Source of the DNA: Candidatus Sumerlaeota bacterium
GTDB lineage: Bacteria > Sumerlaeota > Sumerlaeia > SLMS01 > JAHLLQ01
Direction: 5' to 3'
Length of the DNA: 37,418 nucleotides
Assembly (NCBI GenBank): GCA_021772755.1
Contig: JAJFLJ010000167.1
Location: forward strand, 1-37,418
Made by a program: the position numbers and the translations under genes. Shown here one piece after another: positions 26,593-32,128 of the stretch. The first letter of the stretch is position 1. Every line of letters begins with the position of its first letter. The notes under the pieces were generated by a model that did not search any database, was not told the DNA's origin, and saw only the letters and a list, made by a program, of their open reading frames with translations.

Positions 26593-29500
26593 TTACGGGA
26601 CGTAGGTCGCCCGCACCGCGTCGGAGATGACGACGCCCGGCGTCGAGGAGTCGGCCGCGTCGAGCGTGACGCTGCCGCCGTTGGCATCGAAGTCCCACGT
26701 TCCGAGCGTCACCCAGACCAGGTTGTTCTGCGTCTGGTCGGCGGTAACGGTCTGCGTTCCGGAGGACGTGGCGACTTCGTACTGCACGGAATCCGAGCGG
26801 TTCGAGCTGGCGCGGAACATGACCTCGATCGTCCACGAGCCGGAAACCGGCAGGTCGAGGTCCCATGTCGCCGTGCGCGCCGTACCGGCCGATGCGTAGC
26901 GGTAGGTGCCGCCGTCGTAGCCCGACGATCCCGAAAGGGCCCATGCCCCGGTCTCGGTGTACTCCGGCGAGCCGTTGTCGTTGTCGAAGACGGTCTGCGT
27001 GTCGTAGACCACGACGTTGCGGAACCAGGAGTTCGCGCCGGACCCGGAGTCCATGTCGTTCAGGAACACCAGGTACGTGTAGGAACCGGCGGTCAGGGTC
27101 TGGCCGACGGGGATCGTATAGTGCTTCCACGCCGTCCCGGTGTAGTCGTCGTAGGTCGTGACGCCGTAGGCCTGCGTGCCGAAGACCTTCCACGTCTGGT
27201 CGGAGGAGAGGGTCGTGTCGTTGTCGAAGCACACGCCGCCGATCTCCGGCTCGTTGCCGGTCGAACGATAGTCGAACTCGATGACCGTCGAGGCCGTGAC
27301 GTCGTAGTTCAGGGAGATCGTCTTCCACGTGTTGCCGGTCAGCTCCAGAGTCGTTCCGCCATCGTGCTTCGCCCACGACGTGGAGTTCACGTCCTGGCTG
27401 CCGTAGCTGCCGACGGTGAAGTCGTCGAAGTCGATGGCGTTGGCGGGGACGGACCCGACGGGGGTCGCCGAGACCTGCGAGCTGTTGGCCGACTCGTTCG
27501 CGTTCGGCGTGTCGTCCACGGCGGTCACGACGTAGTAGTACGTCGTGTCGTTCGCGGCGCTGTTGTCGGTGTAGGCGCTGGAAGCCACGAGCGAACCGTT
27601 GATCTTCGAGTAGCCGCTGCCGCTCGTCGTCGAACGGTAGACGTTGTACCCGTCGAGATCGCCCTCGCCGTTGTCGTTCCAGTCGAGACCCACGCTGCCG
27701 TCGCCCGGCGTCGCGGCCAGACCCGTCGGAGCAGAGGGGGCAGTCGTGTCTTCCGGCGTCGCCGAGACCTGCGAGCTGTTGCCGGACTCGTTGGCGTTCG
27801 GCGTGTCGTCCACGGCCGTCACCACGTAGTAGTACGTCGTGAAGTTCGACGCAGTGTTGTCGGTGTAGGCGCTGGAAGCCACGAGCGAGCCGTTGATCTT
27901 CGAGTAGCCGCTACCGCTCGTCGTCGAGCGATAGACGTTGTACCCGTCGAGGTCGCCCTCGCCGTTGTCGCTCCAGTCGAGACCCACGCTGCCGTCACCA
28001 GGCGTCGCCGCCAAGCCCGTCGGGGCAGAGGGCGCCGTCGTGTCTTCCGGCGTCGCCGAGACCTGCGAGCTGTTGCCGGATTCGTTGGCGTTCGGCGTGT
28101 CGTCCACGGCGGTCACGACGTAGTAGTACGTCGTGAAGTTCGACGCAGTGTTGTCGGTGTAGGCGCTGGAAGCCACGAGCGAACCATTGATCTTCGAGTA
28201 GCCGCTGCCGCTCGTCGTCGAACGGTAGACGTTGTACCCGTCGAGATCGCCCTCGCCGTTGTCGTTCCAGTCGAGGCCCACGCTGCCGTCGCCAGGCGTC
28301 GCCGCCAGACCCGTCGGAGCCGAAGGCGCCGTCGTGTCTTCCGGCGTCGCCGAGACCTGCGAGCTGTTGCCGGATTCGTTGGCACTGGTATCGACGGCGG
28401 TCACGACGTAGTAGTACGTCGTGAAATTCGACGCGCTGTTGTCGGTGTAGGCGCTGGAAGCCACGAGCGAGCCGTTGATCTTCGAGTAGCCGCTGCCGCT
28501 CGTCGTCGAGCGGTAGACGTTGTAGCCGTCGAGGTCGCCCTCGCCGTTGTCGCTCCAGTCGAGGCCCACGCTCCCGTCGCCAGGCGTCGCCGCCAGACCC
28601 GTCGGAGCCGAAGGGGCAGTGGTGTCGGCGGAGAGATCGAAGAAATCGACCACGGCCTCCATCAGGTCGGAGCGCACGCTGGCGGAGTTGACCAGTTCGA
28701 AGGGGAAGCCCAGCGTGATGACGCGGCTGGTGCCGTCGCGATAGACCGCCGCCGTGCCGCCGGTGCCGCCGCTGTAGCTGAGGGCGACGGACGAACCGGA
28801 GGACGTGCCAAGGCGGTCGGGGTACTCGGCGTCATAGCGCGCGCCTCCGGCGACATCGAAGCTGAACGCTCCGACACCCGCGAAGGGCCCGCTCCCCGTC
28901 GATGCGATGTCGTACGTATTGGAGTCGTCGCCGACGTAGGAGGCGCGCAGAACGTCGTTGTAGAAGTCCTGGTCCGCCTGGGGGCGCGTCGAGCGGCCCA
29001 GGTCCCAGCCGATCTCGGCGCCGGAAACGAACAGGTTGTTGCCCGACGACGCCAGGTAGCTGGAAACGAGCGCCTGCTCCGCGGAGGAGAACGTTTCGAG
29101 CACCGTCGATTCCTCGCCGCATATCCAGAAGACCGCGTCGTAGTCCCCGAGCGTCACGTCGCCGTCGATCACGGCTTCGTTGGAGGCGCTGCTGATGGCG
29201 ACGCCGGTGCCTTCGAGGGCTTCGGCGTGTTCGATGACGTAGTTGAACGCCTGGAACGTGCGCGGGTCGAGGCGCTGGAGATTCGTGCCGGCGTTCGTGA
29301 TGGACTGCTGCGGAACCAGGCTGGCGCTGTTGCGGTCGAAGCCGTTGACGATCAGAACGTCGCTGGCGCCGTCGCAGACGGCGAGCGTCTCGGTCGGGAA
29401 GGACTGACCGCCGGCGTTGACGGCGACGACGCGGTAGTACTTCGTCTCGCCCGACGTCAGGCCGGAGAACGTCGTCGAGGTGCCGCTGCTTACGACGGTG

Positions 29501-31590
29501 CCGTCGTCGAAGCCGAACCCGTTGTCGCTCGACTGGACGCGGTAGGACGTGGCGGCGTCGCCGTAATACTGGTTCGAGGAGGATGTCGGCGGGGCGTCCC
29601 AGGCCACATGGACCTGTCCGCTGCCGAGCGCGGTGACGCGCAGGTGCGTCGGCGTTTCCGGGGGCAGCGTCAGCGTGACGCTGTCGCGGTCCTCGTAGTA
29701 GGCGATGAGGCCGTGGACGATGGCGCGGGCCATGTCGTGGCGAAACTGCGGTTCCGCGTACCCGCCGGCGTCGTCCGCGTTGTCGTGGAAGAGCCCTTCG
29801 ATGAGGAAGCCGGGGAGGCCGGTTCCGAGACTGCTCTGGTTGTTCTCGCCGAAGTTGGTCACGTTCTTCGACCGCACGGTCCAGTTCGAGAACCACTGGC
29901 CCTCGATGTGGTCGTACAGTTCGTCGTGCATGATGCTCTGGAGGTCGGCCGACGCCTGCGTGGCGGTGCTGTGGCGGAACGTGCTGAGTCCGCGCGCGCT
30001 GCCGTTGAAGGCGTTCGTGTGCCACGCGAAGTAGAGGGCGTCCTCGACGGAGTTGTCCTTCTCGCTGTGCTCCCACCGCGCGTACTGGGGCCTGTCGGAC
30101 CAGCCGCCGGCCTCGTCGTCGTTGCCGGTGTAGAGGGAGCCGCTGTAGCCGAAGCCGTTGAACTGCAGGTAGTTGACGGCCTCTTCCTCCCAGCGCGGGC
30201 GGCCGCTGATGCCGTGGTTGTGGCGTTCCATGTCGCCCATGCCGCCTCCCCACCGCACGGCGTCTGCCGAGACGTTGGAAGCCGTGCCGTCGGAGCTGTT
30301 GTTGGTGAGGACGACCTTGCTCTCGCTCGCGGGGGCGCCGGCCTCGAAGTACCAGTTCCCGAGGAGGTTCCAGGTGTAGCCGTCGATCTTCTGGTTCATG
30401 CGGACTTCGGAAACGCCGCCGCTGTGGTGCACGAGGTACTGGGCGTCGTCGGCGCGGGCGGTGTACGCGGTCCAGCTCGTGTAGACGTTGTAGTAGCCGT
30501 CCTCGGGAACGTCGACCGTCCACGTCGCGGTCGCCGTCGGCGTGCCGCTGGTCACTCCGTTGGACAGACGGTTCGCGCCGCTCCCCTGGTTGAACGGATT
30601 CACGCTCGTTCCGACCCACGAGGAGGTGGTCTTCTGGACGAAGCCGTTCAGGGAGGAGTTCGACCACGTTCCCGTTTCGACGTACGTTCCGTCGTCGTTG
30701 CCGGAGGTGCCGTCGGCATTGTCGACGATGACCATGTTGGTCTGCAGGTCCGATTCGCGAACGGTCTGGACCTTGGCGCCCGCGTTGCGCAGCGCCGGCA
30801 GAACGTACATGTTCATGATCTCCGCGCTGTCGAAGTCCTCGAGAACGCCGAAGTTGTCGCCGCGCTGAACGCGCCAGCGGCCGAAGTCCACATCGTCGAA
30901 CCATCCGTGGGACTGGTTGATGTAGATCGTCTTGCCGCCAAGAGATCCGGATGGCTGGCCGGGGTTGATGGTCGGAACGGAGGACTTCGGCACCGCGATG
31001 CCCAGCTCCGCGGAGATGCGGTCGGATTCCGCGTCGACGGGACGCGTTCTCCTGGGGGCCTTCTCCTTCGGCAGCAGTTCCTGGACATCGACGACTTCAC
31101 CCGTCGACGGGTCGCGCACGTCGAGGAAGACGCGGTTCCAGTCCTCCGTCGCGATCGACTGCAGGAATTCCGCGCCGATCCTCGCGACGGCCGGTTCGTC
31201 GAAATCCTTCGAGTTCACGAAGGACTTCGGCAGGTCGAGCTGGATGCGGATCTCGCGGTCGCCGGCGAAGGGCTCGTCGTAGGCGAACTCCACGCCGATC
31301 AGCTCCGTCCCCGCGGGGAGGCCGCTGTAGTCGATGAAGTGCGACGCCTTGTCGGAATCGAGATTCGCCTTCAGTTGCAGTACGGACTGTACGAGTGCGC
31401 GCGCGCGGTCCTCGCTGCCGGGTTCGCCGACGGATGCGGCCACCTCGGCGAATACCTGCGCGCGATAGTCCCTGATCTGTGCGGTTTTCTCGCAGGGAAC
31501 GCCCGAGAGAAAGTCGCACGCGGTCGCCGGGCCTGCGGCGAGCAGACCGCCTGCGACGACGGCCAGTGCGGTTCTTCGAAGTCTCTTCAT
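26593..31590 (-). CDS. Large exported amidase-like protein with golvesin-like and Fn3 domains
   Basis: This is a 1665-residue protein with a signal peptide (LAVVAGGLLAAGPATA); the next residue is Cys, so lipidation is possible. An N-acetylmuramoyl-L-alanine amidase (amidase_3-like) catalytic domain spans about 210-610. Probable zinc ligands are His228 (INQSHGW), a Glu near 467 (RWEEEAVNYLQF) and His524 (WHTNAFNG); catalytic Glu598 lies in LIEGLFHDN. A golvesin-like domain (about 283-450) is inserted inside it. Then follow one Fn3 (about 645-732), an alpha/beta GATase- or flavodoxin-like domain (about 737-983; DYDAVFWICGEES), four near-identical Fn3 repeats (989-1378), a carbohydrate-binding-like beta domain and a second golvesin-like domain at the end. 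The expected role is peptidoglycan or polymer hydrolysis outside the inner membrane. ATG 31590 is preceded by AGGAGG at 10 bases. Confidence 0.88.
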   Translation of the reverse strand: MKRLRRTALAVVAGGLLAAGPATACDFLSGVPCEKTAQIRDYRAQVFAEVAASVGEPGSEDRARALVQSVLQLKANLDSDKASHFIDYSGLPAGTELIGVEFAYDEPFAGDREIRIQLDLPKSFVNSKDFDEPAVARIGAEFLQSIATEDWNRVFLDVRDPSTGEVVDVQELLPKEKAPRRTRPVDAESDRISAELGIAVPKSSVPTINPGQPSGSLGGKTIYINQSHGWFDDVDFGRWRVQRGDNFGVLEDFDSAEIMNMYVLPALRNAGAKVQTVRESDLQTNMVIVDNADGTSGNDDGTYVETGTWSNSSLNGFVQKTTSSWVGTSVNPFNQGSGANRLSNGVTSGTPTATATWTVDVPEDGYYNVYTSWTAYTARADDAQYLVHHSGGVSEVRMNQKIDGYTWNLLGNWYFEAGAPASESKVVLTNNSSDGTASNVSADAVRWGGGMGDMERHNHGISGRPRWEEEAVNYLQFNGFGYSGSLYTGNDDEAGGWSDRPQYARWEHSEKDNSVEDALYFAWHTNAFNGSARGLSTFRHSTATQASADLQSIMHDELYDHIEGQWFSNWTVRSKNVTNFGENNQSSLGTGLPGFLIEGLFHDNADDAGGYAEPQFRHDMARAIVHGLIAYYEDRDSVTLTLPPETPTHLRVTALGSGQVHVAWDAPPTSSSNQYYGDAATSYRVQSSDNGFGFDDGTVVSSGTSTTFSGLTSGETKYYRVVAVNAGGQSFPTETLAVCDGASDVLIVNGFDRNSASLVPQQSITNAGTNLQRLDPRTFQAFNYVIEHAEALEGTGVAISSASNEAVIDGDVTLGDYDAVFWICGEESTVLETFSSAEQALVSSYLASSGNNLFVSGAEIGWDLGRSTRPQADQDFYNDVLRASYVGDDSNTYDIASTGSGPFAGVGAFSFDVAGGARYDAEYPDRLGTSSGSSVALSYSGGTGGTAAVYRDGTSRVITLGFPFELVNSASVRSDLMEAVVDFFDLSADTTAPSAPTGLAATPGDGSVGLDWSDNGEGDLDGYNVYRSTTSGSGYSKINGSLVASSAYTDNSASNFTTYYYVVTAVDTSANESGNSSQVSATPEDTTAPSAPTGLAATPGDGSVGLDWNDNGEGDLDGYNVYRSTTSGSGYSKINGSLVASSAYTDNTASNFTTYYYVVTAVDDTPNANESGNSSQVSATPEDTTAPSAPTGLAATPGDGSVGLDWSDNGEGDLDGYNVYRSTTSGSGYSKINGSLVASSAYTDNTASNFTTYYYVVTAVDDTPNANESGNSSQVSATPEDTTAPSAPTGLAATPGDGSVGLDWNDNGEGDLDGYNVYRSTTSGSGYSKINGSLVASSAYTDNSAANDTTYYYVVTAVDDTPNANESANSSQVSATPVGSVPANAIDFDDFTVGSYGSQDVNSTSWAKHDGGTTLELTGNTWKTISLNYDVTASTVIEFDYRSTGNEPEIGGVCFDNDTTLSSDQTWKVFGTQAYGVTTYDDYTGTAWKHYTIPVGQTLTAGSYTYLVFLNDMDSGSGANSWFRNVVVYDTQTVFDNDNGSPEYTETGAWALSGSSGYDGGTYRYASAGTARTATWDLDLPVSGSWTIEVMFRASSNRSDSVQYEVATSSGTQTVTADQTQNNLVWVTLGTWDFDANGGSVTLDAADSSTPGVVISDAVRATYVP
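27457..28626 (-). repeat. Four tandem Fn3-encoding direct repeats (294-bp period)
   Basis: Four in-frame direct copies encode Fn3 modules beginning DTTAPSAPTGLAATPGDGSV. Landmarks recur at 27464, 27758, 28052 and 28346, exactly 294 bp apart; the first copy in the protein is 6 bp shorter. Copies 1 and 3 read DWSDN while 2 and 4 read DWNDN, which suggests duplication of a two-module unit. Nucleotide identity is very high, indicating recent duplication or ongoing homogenisation. Confidence 0.97.
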
Positions 31591-31856
31591 GCGGGGAATG
31601 CCTCCTGCGCTCCAGGGAGCGCCATGGTGTCATGCGGACGCGATTATCCGAATCCCACGTCCGTCATGCGTGACTGGACGTGCCGAATGGACCAATCGAC
31701 CGGCTTTCCGACACCGGCCTCCCCGCGTGGAAACAATCTCTCTCGGCACTTATCGCCAGAAGCCGACATCCGACGGGGAATGTCAACCATCAGATGGCTG
31801 CGGACCGTTCACGCGGAGCGATGTTCACAGCTTCGCGCTTTTTCGAAAATAATCTC
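31591..31856. other. Intergenic region upstream of the amidase gene
   Basis: No coding signal is seen. It must hold the amidase promoter. A minus-strand GATAAT at 31648-31643 is the best -10 candidate, without a consensus -35. A minus-strand TTGACA near 31784 has no -10 at the right distance. Confidence 0.45.
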
Positions 31857-31894
31857 TTGACGCACTCCCCGTTTTTTTCGGAGTTGGTAGTCAA
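31857..31894. promoter_or_regulatory. Nested inverted repeat before the strong Shine-Dalgarno site
   Basis: TTGAC (31857-31861) pairs with GTCAA (31890-31894). Inside it ACTCC (31864-31868) pairs with GGAGT (31880-31884) around a T7 tract. It lies immediately upstream of the extended Shine-Dalgarno sequence, so it may be an operator or the 5' hairpin of a small transcript. The TTGACG could also be a -35, but no proper -10 follows. Confidence 0.35.
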
Positions 31895-31901
31895 CGCTGC
31901 G

Positions 31902-31914
31902 AAAGGAGGTGGTC
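31902..31914 (+). promoter_or_regulatory. Extended Shine-Dalgarno sequence
   Basis: AAAGGAGGTGGTC matches the complement of the 16S rRNA 3' end over nearly its full length, far better than any other site in the window. The AGGAGG core lies 11 bases before the ATG at 31921. Confidence 0.65.
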
Positions 31915-31920
31915 ATATCC

Positions 31921-32001
31921 ATGCACGACAGTCCCAGCGAGGTGACTGAGTCCTTGCTTTGCAGCCTCACGAAAGTCTCGGTGATTTTCCCAGCGGTTTG
32001 A
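31921..32001 (+). CDS. Candidate 26-residue small protein or leader peptide
   Basis: ATG at 31921 opens a 26-codon frame ending in TGA at 31999-32001. The product begins MHDSPSEVTESLLCSL and ends in a hydrophobic stretch (VSVIFPAV). No family is recognised. The main evidence is the unusually strong Shine-Dalgarno sequence upstream and the location in an otherwise gene-free interval. No plus-strand gene lies downstream before the end of the window, so it is not an obvious attenuator for a known gene. It could be a real microprotein, a leader peptide for the overlapping RNA structure, or a remnant of a longer gene. Confidence 0.4.
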   Translation: MHDSPSEVTESLLCSLTKVSVIFPAV

Positions 32002-32038
32002 GGTTCGCTCGAAAGCTCGGAAGACCATCTCGGTCACC
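31941..32038 (+). ncRNA. Candidate structured RNA overlapping the small ORF
   Basis: GGTGACTGAG (31941-31950) can pair with CTCGGTCACC (32029-32038), ten pairs with one G-U. Inside, CCTCA (31965-31969) pairs with TGAGG (31999-32003), which includes the ORF stop. The layout resembles a closed multi-stem RNA domain. It does not match any riboswitch or housekeeping RNA I recognise. Strand is inferred from the Shine-Dalgarno sequence. Confidence 0.3.
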
Positions 32039-32064
32039 GCACCACTCGATACGAACGTTCACGG

Positions 32065-32097
32065 AGCCGCCGCGGATCCCATGGGTTCGCGGCGGCT
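32065..32097. terminator. Possible bidirectional terminator hairpin
   Basis: AGCCGCCGCG (32065-32074) pairs perfectly with CGCGGCGGCT (32088-32097) around a 13-base loop. The T-tract is poor on both strands. It lies between the small plus-strand unit and the stop of the convergent lipoprotein gene at 32129. Confidence 0.55.
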
Positions 32098-32128
32098 TCG
32101 TCGCCTGGTGGGGATGCGCGAACGCCGC

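Follow-up and report, generated by a model that had tools for sequence, protein, structure and literature searches.

A putative small RNA gene between minus-strand frames

The window analyzed here is a stretch of 37,418 nucleotides from a Candidatus Sumerlaeota genome that is 80.7% complete. It contains the 538-base gap between minus-strand genes that the initial annotation had described, here bounded by the frame ends at 31590 and 32129, and the plus strand of this gap carries a putative small RNA gene (Table 1). The parts listed in that annotation (a nested inverted repeat, a Shine-Dalgarno sequence, a 26-codon ORF, a 10-pair helix and an end hairpin) are all present in the sequence. Judged from relatives, the 5' end of the RNA lies near 31893; the nested repeat, which spans 31857-31894, therefore falls in the promoter region and is not part of the RNA. 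The end hairpin is likewise present with its 18 pairs, though without a good T run, and the best candidate for a -10 element scores a poor 7 of 12. Both the whole element (z = -2.9) and the segment 31893-32100 (z = -3.4) fold better than shuffled sequence. No tRNA or tmRNA was detected at the element, no Rfam family reached its gathering score in the window, and the element DNA has no second copy in its own genome. The minus-strand frame upstream (26593-31590) encodes a large protein in which Golvesin_C, fn3 and Amidase_3 domains were identified, and a similar-looking gene occupies the same place in a sister genome.

Table 1. Features of the element, in window coordinates
Feature	Position	Strand	Remarks
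Small RNA gene	31893-32100	+	5' end inferred from relatives
Promoter-like region	31857-31892	+	TTGACG at 31857-31862 and nested inverted repeat
P1 5' strand, CGCTG	31895-31899	+	partner 31935-31939
P1 3' strand, CAGCG	31935-31939	+	
Extended Shine-Dalgarno, GAAAGGAGGTGGTC	31901-31914	+	complementary to 16S 3' tail
ORF as it stands, MHDSPSEVTESLLCSLTKVSVIFPAV	31921-32001	+	ATG 31921 to TGA 32001, 26 codons
Conserved 11-codon ORF part	31921-31953	+	family stop position 31954-31956, TTG in window
P2 5' strand, GGTGACTGAG	31941-31950	+	overlaps conserved EV codons; 10-pair helix with 32029-32038
P2 3' strand, CTCGGTCACC	32029-32038	+	
P3 5' strand, TCC	31951-31953	+	weak in window
P3 3' strand, GGA	32019-32021	+	
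End hairpin, 18 pairs	about 32062-32100	+	terminator-like position; T run weak in window

The element belongs to a widespread family

In a DNA search, the sister genome proved to carry the element, with 76% identity across 263 bases, and three further genomes of the class gave short matches. A sequence pattern drawn from these matches occurred in 11 of 39 class genomes, with no occurrence of the reversed control pattern. Across named genomes the pattern scan returned 13 stretches, among them Sumerlaeota/BRC1, two Entotheonella (Tectimicrobiota), the deltaproteobacterium RBG_13_61_14, Acidobacteriales, two records titled 'bacterium' and one Thiobacillus; the last (L022) sits in an apparent coding frame, was judged a chance match and was removed by eye. 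A covariance model built from 16 sequences (R1) matched 42 of 386 genomes, 17 of them from the class and 25 from elsewhere, seven of the latter too weak to count. Among these 25, 17 show the features of the family (16 in alignment A4, together with G271, a near-duplicate of G133), G319 is divergent in its reading frame, and G174, G228, G233, G257, G290, G311 and G330 are the weak, uncounted ones. The weak match in G330 (L072, 329-374, model R2) has a Shine-Dalgarno sequence, a GACTG/CAGTC P1-like pair, a TTGACA promoter and a different ORF, and is possibly a distant relative.

A second model from 33 sequences (R2) matched 17 of 39 genomes in the class of the window (Sumerlaeota), 297 of 346 around G283 (the genome of locus L061), 19 of 290 around G326, all three genomes in the phylum of G349 and both in the phylum of G188, and nearly every positive genome holds a single copy. 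The initial annotation had called the unit isolated, which these counts contradict, in particular those for the class and for the surroundings of G283. Twenty-five of the 297 matches around G283 were examined individually; the Rfam family name and the literature suggest that this neighbourhood is actinobacterial. The remaining 22 of the 39 class genomes have no R2 match, and since one of them (G015) is a single contig, the element appears dispensable. Before counting, near-duplicates or identical loci (L006, L026, L038, L045, L047) and loci from the same genomes as others (L024, L017, L018, L021, L027-L029) were removed, L016 and L027 being one locus. One IMG/VR pattern match was considered as a virus-borne copy and rejected (R2 E value only 0.21). 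The window copy matches R1 at 31893-32039 with 84.6 bits and scores 77.3 bits with R2; as judged from sequence, it is a diverged member of a cross-phylum set of RNA genes that usually occur once per genome.

In relatives, a TTGAC(A)/-10-like pair ends 5-6 nt upstream of P1, and the end hairpin is often present with a T run. Crude scans detected a candidate terminator in 24 of 58 copies and a candidate promoter in 23 of 58 (5.3% for shuffled upstream sequence). In three loci of family f6 (L013, L014, L015), the region from P2 to the end hairpin holds a further conserved stretch, TCCTGCGCCG ... AAAGTCAGGA.

Conserved RNA helices

Three helices are predicted across the family. P1 encloses the Shine-Dalgarno sequence, which lies in its loop, and the start codon; P2 joins, over a long range, the block around two conserved codons (EV) to a CAGTCCACC-like 3' strand; and P3 pairs the region of the last codons with the strand preceding the P2 3' strand. 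Over 33 sequences, 92.4% of alignment cells pair and 11 of 17 pairs show two-sided changes. The cells with such changes number 68; shuffles gave 19.3, none of 500 reaching 68, and slid controls 6-19. In alignment A4, two-sided changes affect 4 of 5 P1 pairs and 3 of 8 modelled P2 pairs, and all four P3 pairs covary; in the G283-neighbourhood set (25 sequences) 93.4% of cells are paired and 9 of 16 pairs have two-sided changes, although the fitting of alignments A3-A5 to the structure of the model biases their pair counts towards it. The sequence-only alignment A2, which was not so fitted, gave 92.6% paired against at most 44% in slid controls. P1 occurs as CGCTG/CAGCG, CACTG/CAGTG, CGTC/GACG and CTTC/GAAG. 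The search of genomes for stem covariation that the initial annotation had proposed thus showed P1 and P2 to be conserved with compensatory changes.

Folds of the isolated strand favour P1 in 18, P2 in 23 and P3 in 15 of 33 sequences. The best fold of 31893-32100 in the window lacks all three helices, and the probability of P3 there is 0. The Shine-Dalgarno sequence could alternatively pair with the P2 3' strand, as 154 of 159 cells allow. P1 and P2 are, on the comparative evidence, conserved RNA helices, with P3 less uniform.

A tiny reading frame with a fixed start and stop

A start codon lies 7-12 nt after AGGAGG, in the frame of the EV codons, in 33 of 33 aligned copies, and in neither of the other two frames in any of them (shuffled sequences gave a mean of 3.6 and at most 10 in 2000), while the spacing between the Shine-Dalgarno sequence and the EV codons varies across all three phases. 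In 32 of 33 copies the stop codon is placed exactly 15 nt beyond GAG; the exception is the window. The family stop is lost there (TTG at 31954, as opposed to TAG in the sister genome), so the ORF runs on to 26 codons. The 26-codon ORF of the initial annotation therefore exists, but its length is a derived state in which the stop has moved 15 codons downstream. The window copy may be altered or decaying, and its lost stop makes it a poor type specimen.

The same frame pattern was seen in 26 of the 29 rows of a second set (25 G283 matches and four others). Within the G283 neighbourhood 24 of 25 copies start with ATG, GTG or TTG, and L081 needs a CTG start. The test on 33 rows had left out L064/L126, L124, L066 and L072 as exceptions or doubtful, and L124-L127 were tested in the second set, where L124 and L126 have their ORF in another frame; these two and the doubtful L066 either use another reading frame or lack GAGGTG. 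At L107 a second, shorter frame lies beside the EV frame. In L124 (1501-1700) and L126 (1501-1699), both of family f158, the RNA block is kept and the ORF is Cys/Gly-rich (CTYC...GGCGG), and here the frame may be able to shift while the RNA stays. For the family as a whole, the predicted tiny ORF is conserved, starting in the P1 loop and ending at a fixed place in the region of the closing helices.

Predicted pairing with the 16S 3' tail

With G-U pairs counted, 24 of 33 copies in one alignment and 22 of 25 in another can pair with all 16 bases of GGATCACCTCCTTTCT, the 16S 3' tail, and the window element forms 14 contiguous pairs by the same rule. The tail was read in four genomes; a 16S search of the window's own genome gave no match. 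The 14-mer RAAAGGAGGTGRTC occurs in the window's genome at the element only, and in 15 genomes 13 of its 20 sites are this element, four are antisense to 16S, two precede other genes and one is unclassified. Around position 1501 of L142 and L147 are two protein genes with an equally long Shine-Dalgarno sequence, one of them type IV pilin-like. An extended predicted complement of the 16S 3' tail is conserved in the family.

Among the readings offered in the initial annotation, a regulatory RNA with a translated leader and a mimic of the 16S complement agree with the putative 16S match, ORF and closing stem, each of which is conserved. The element may also titrate ribosomes, as raised there. In its simplest form the RNA would be a decoy that sits on the 16S tail and reduces or stores the initiating 30S subunits, the ORF merely releasing captured ribosomes. 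The 16-base complement and the concentration of the 14-mer sites in this element speak for such a decoy; however, it leaves the exact stop position and the covarying P1, P2 and P3 around the end of the ORF unexplained, and a single gene copy would require very high expression. We therefore regard a pure decoy as unlikely.

Apparent selection on translation rather than on the peptide

GAGGTG is invariant in 58 of 58 aligned copies, and EV is always encoded by GAG GTG, whereas the residues before and after EV change along with helix pairing. As the amino acids mostly follow RNA pairing, being translated appears to matter more than the peptide made, and selection seems to act on the RNA and its translation. 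A functional micropeptide of 11-16 residues with a C-terminal ...EVxxx would account for the conserved frame, start, stop and EV, and the N-terminal part is alike within the G283 neighbourhood (RTREV); but that part is variable between groups, and the variation around EV follows P1 and P2 with the two EV codons never replaced by synonyms. A micropeptide function is thus improbable, and the pure microprotein considered in the initial annotation is weakened, since residues vary with the pairing while start, frame and stop are fixed.

Proposed mechanism

These data suggest a widespread RNA that may work by ribosome capture. The reading we prefer, which we hold with about as much doubt as belief, is a stand-alone RNA that captures ribosomes and is gated by translation, with capture and gating both inferred, in a cross-phylum family that includes the Rfam family Ms_IGR-5 (see below). 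The RNA would capture 30S subunits through the 16-base match, and the ribosome would then translate 11-16 codons and open P1, P2 and P3 before reaching the stop. The RNA would in this way alternate between a closed state and one opened by the ribosome, in which the P2 3' strand is freed, and it could thereby report or buffer initiation capacity, with the passage of the ribosome, rather than the peptide, as the working step. Transcription, footprint and phenotype of the window copy and of the non-actinobacterial copies are putative. We propose more tentatively, as something that may well not hold, that this is a multi-phylum class of RNA that reads the state of the ribosome pool directly, through pairing with the 16S 3' tail over its full length, translation of a content-free mini-ORF with its stop at a structural hinge being what resets it.

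The complement covers the whole tail, and the RNA could accordingly be imagined to check 16S 3'-end maturation, with only a finished tail able to pair and allow translation, so that the mature 30S subunit is sensed; we consider this quite improbable, as complementarity alone stands behind it and no link to processing genes was seen. A cis-acting leader peptide or attenuator for the following gene, which the short ORF with its Shine-Dalgarno sequence and the terminator-like hairpin might bring to mind, can scarcely be believed, because the nearest downstream frame is on the opposite strand at 17 of 33 loci and on the same strand at 16 (calls are longest-frame guesses), the neighbours are unrelated (ThyX, NUDIX, DAO, DEAD helicase and TauD among those found), and no constant same-strand downstream gene exists across the 33 loci. 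At L056 (1264-1421) an FMN riboswitch lies immediately downstream of the element.

Comparison with known systems

Like leader peptides and uORFs, the element combines a short ORF, a strong Shine-Dalgarno sequence and a structured RNA, but it differs from them in having no constant downstream gene. Dual-function small RNAs form a general class of stand-alone RNAs with an ORF. The element is also a putative stand-alone RNA bearing an ORF; in contrast to this class it has no known target or peptide function, and the peptide is not what is conserved.

The closest known relative is Ms_IGR-5 (RF02471). Three loci pass the gathering score of this Rfam family (45 bits) over its full length, namely L061 (82.1 bits), L063 (58.9 bits) and L050 (52.3 bits). 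Below it are L019 (39.9 bits, end to end) and the Sumerlaeota genomes G016 (41.5 bits, E = 6.9e-8) and G020 (27.9 bits). An RF02471 search matched two of 21 genomes, neither above the cut-off, and none of 14 control genomes; positions 31850-32110 of the window gave no RF02471 match up to E = 10, nor did the window's genome give any. R1 was built without any RF02471 match over threshold, yet it finds L061; as it recovers L061, L063 and L050, which pass RF02471, the element set and Ms_IGR-5 are one family. The window is linked to Ms_IGR-5 only via its relatives, by homology through intermediates. Matches to MIR, sX13 and similar Rfam families were far below gathering.

Ms_IGR-5 has been reported from RNA-seq in Streptomyces lividans, S. 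avermitilis and M. smegmatis (PMC8079986, PMC8780764, PMC10454040) and, for M. abscessus and M. smegmatis, ribosome footprints on this RNA have been described (PMC4974804). The motif does not appear in the available portions of PMC11109978, and those of PMC8628891 and PMC8388888 add nothing on it. The literature listings and paper passages covered report no function for Ms_IGR-5 and no conserved ORF, P1/P2 structure or wider spread, and lend no support to an identity with Streptomyces scr4389.

Ms_IGR-5 shares with the relatives the 5' end, the Shine-Dalgarno sequence, the GAGGTGGCTG and CAGTCACC blocks and the end hairpin. It differs in its Rfam consensus, which pairs the Shine-Dalgarno sequence with a GCUGCC block and has neither P1 nor P2; the helix of that consensus is paired in 139 of 198 cells of A4 and in 135 of 150 cells of A5. 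An RNA family filed as actinobacterial thus has relatives in several other phyla, along with a conserved reading frame and a covarying structure that differs from the Rfam one. Should the RNA capture and report ribosomes, translation capacity would have a regulator of a kind other than the protein hibernation factors.
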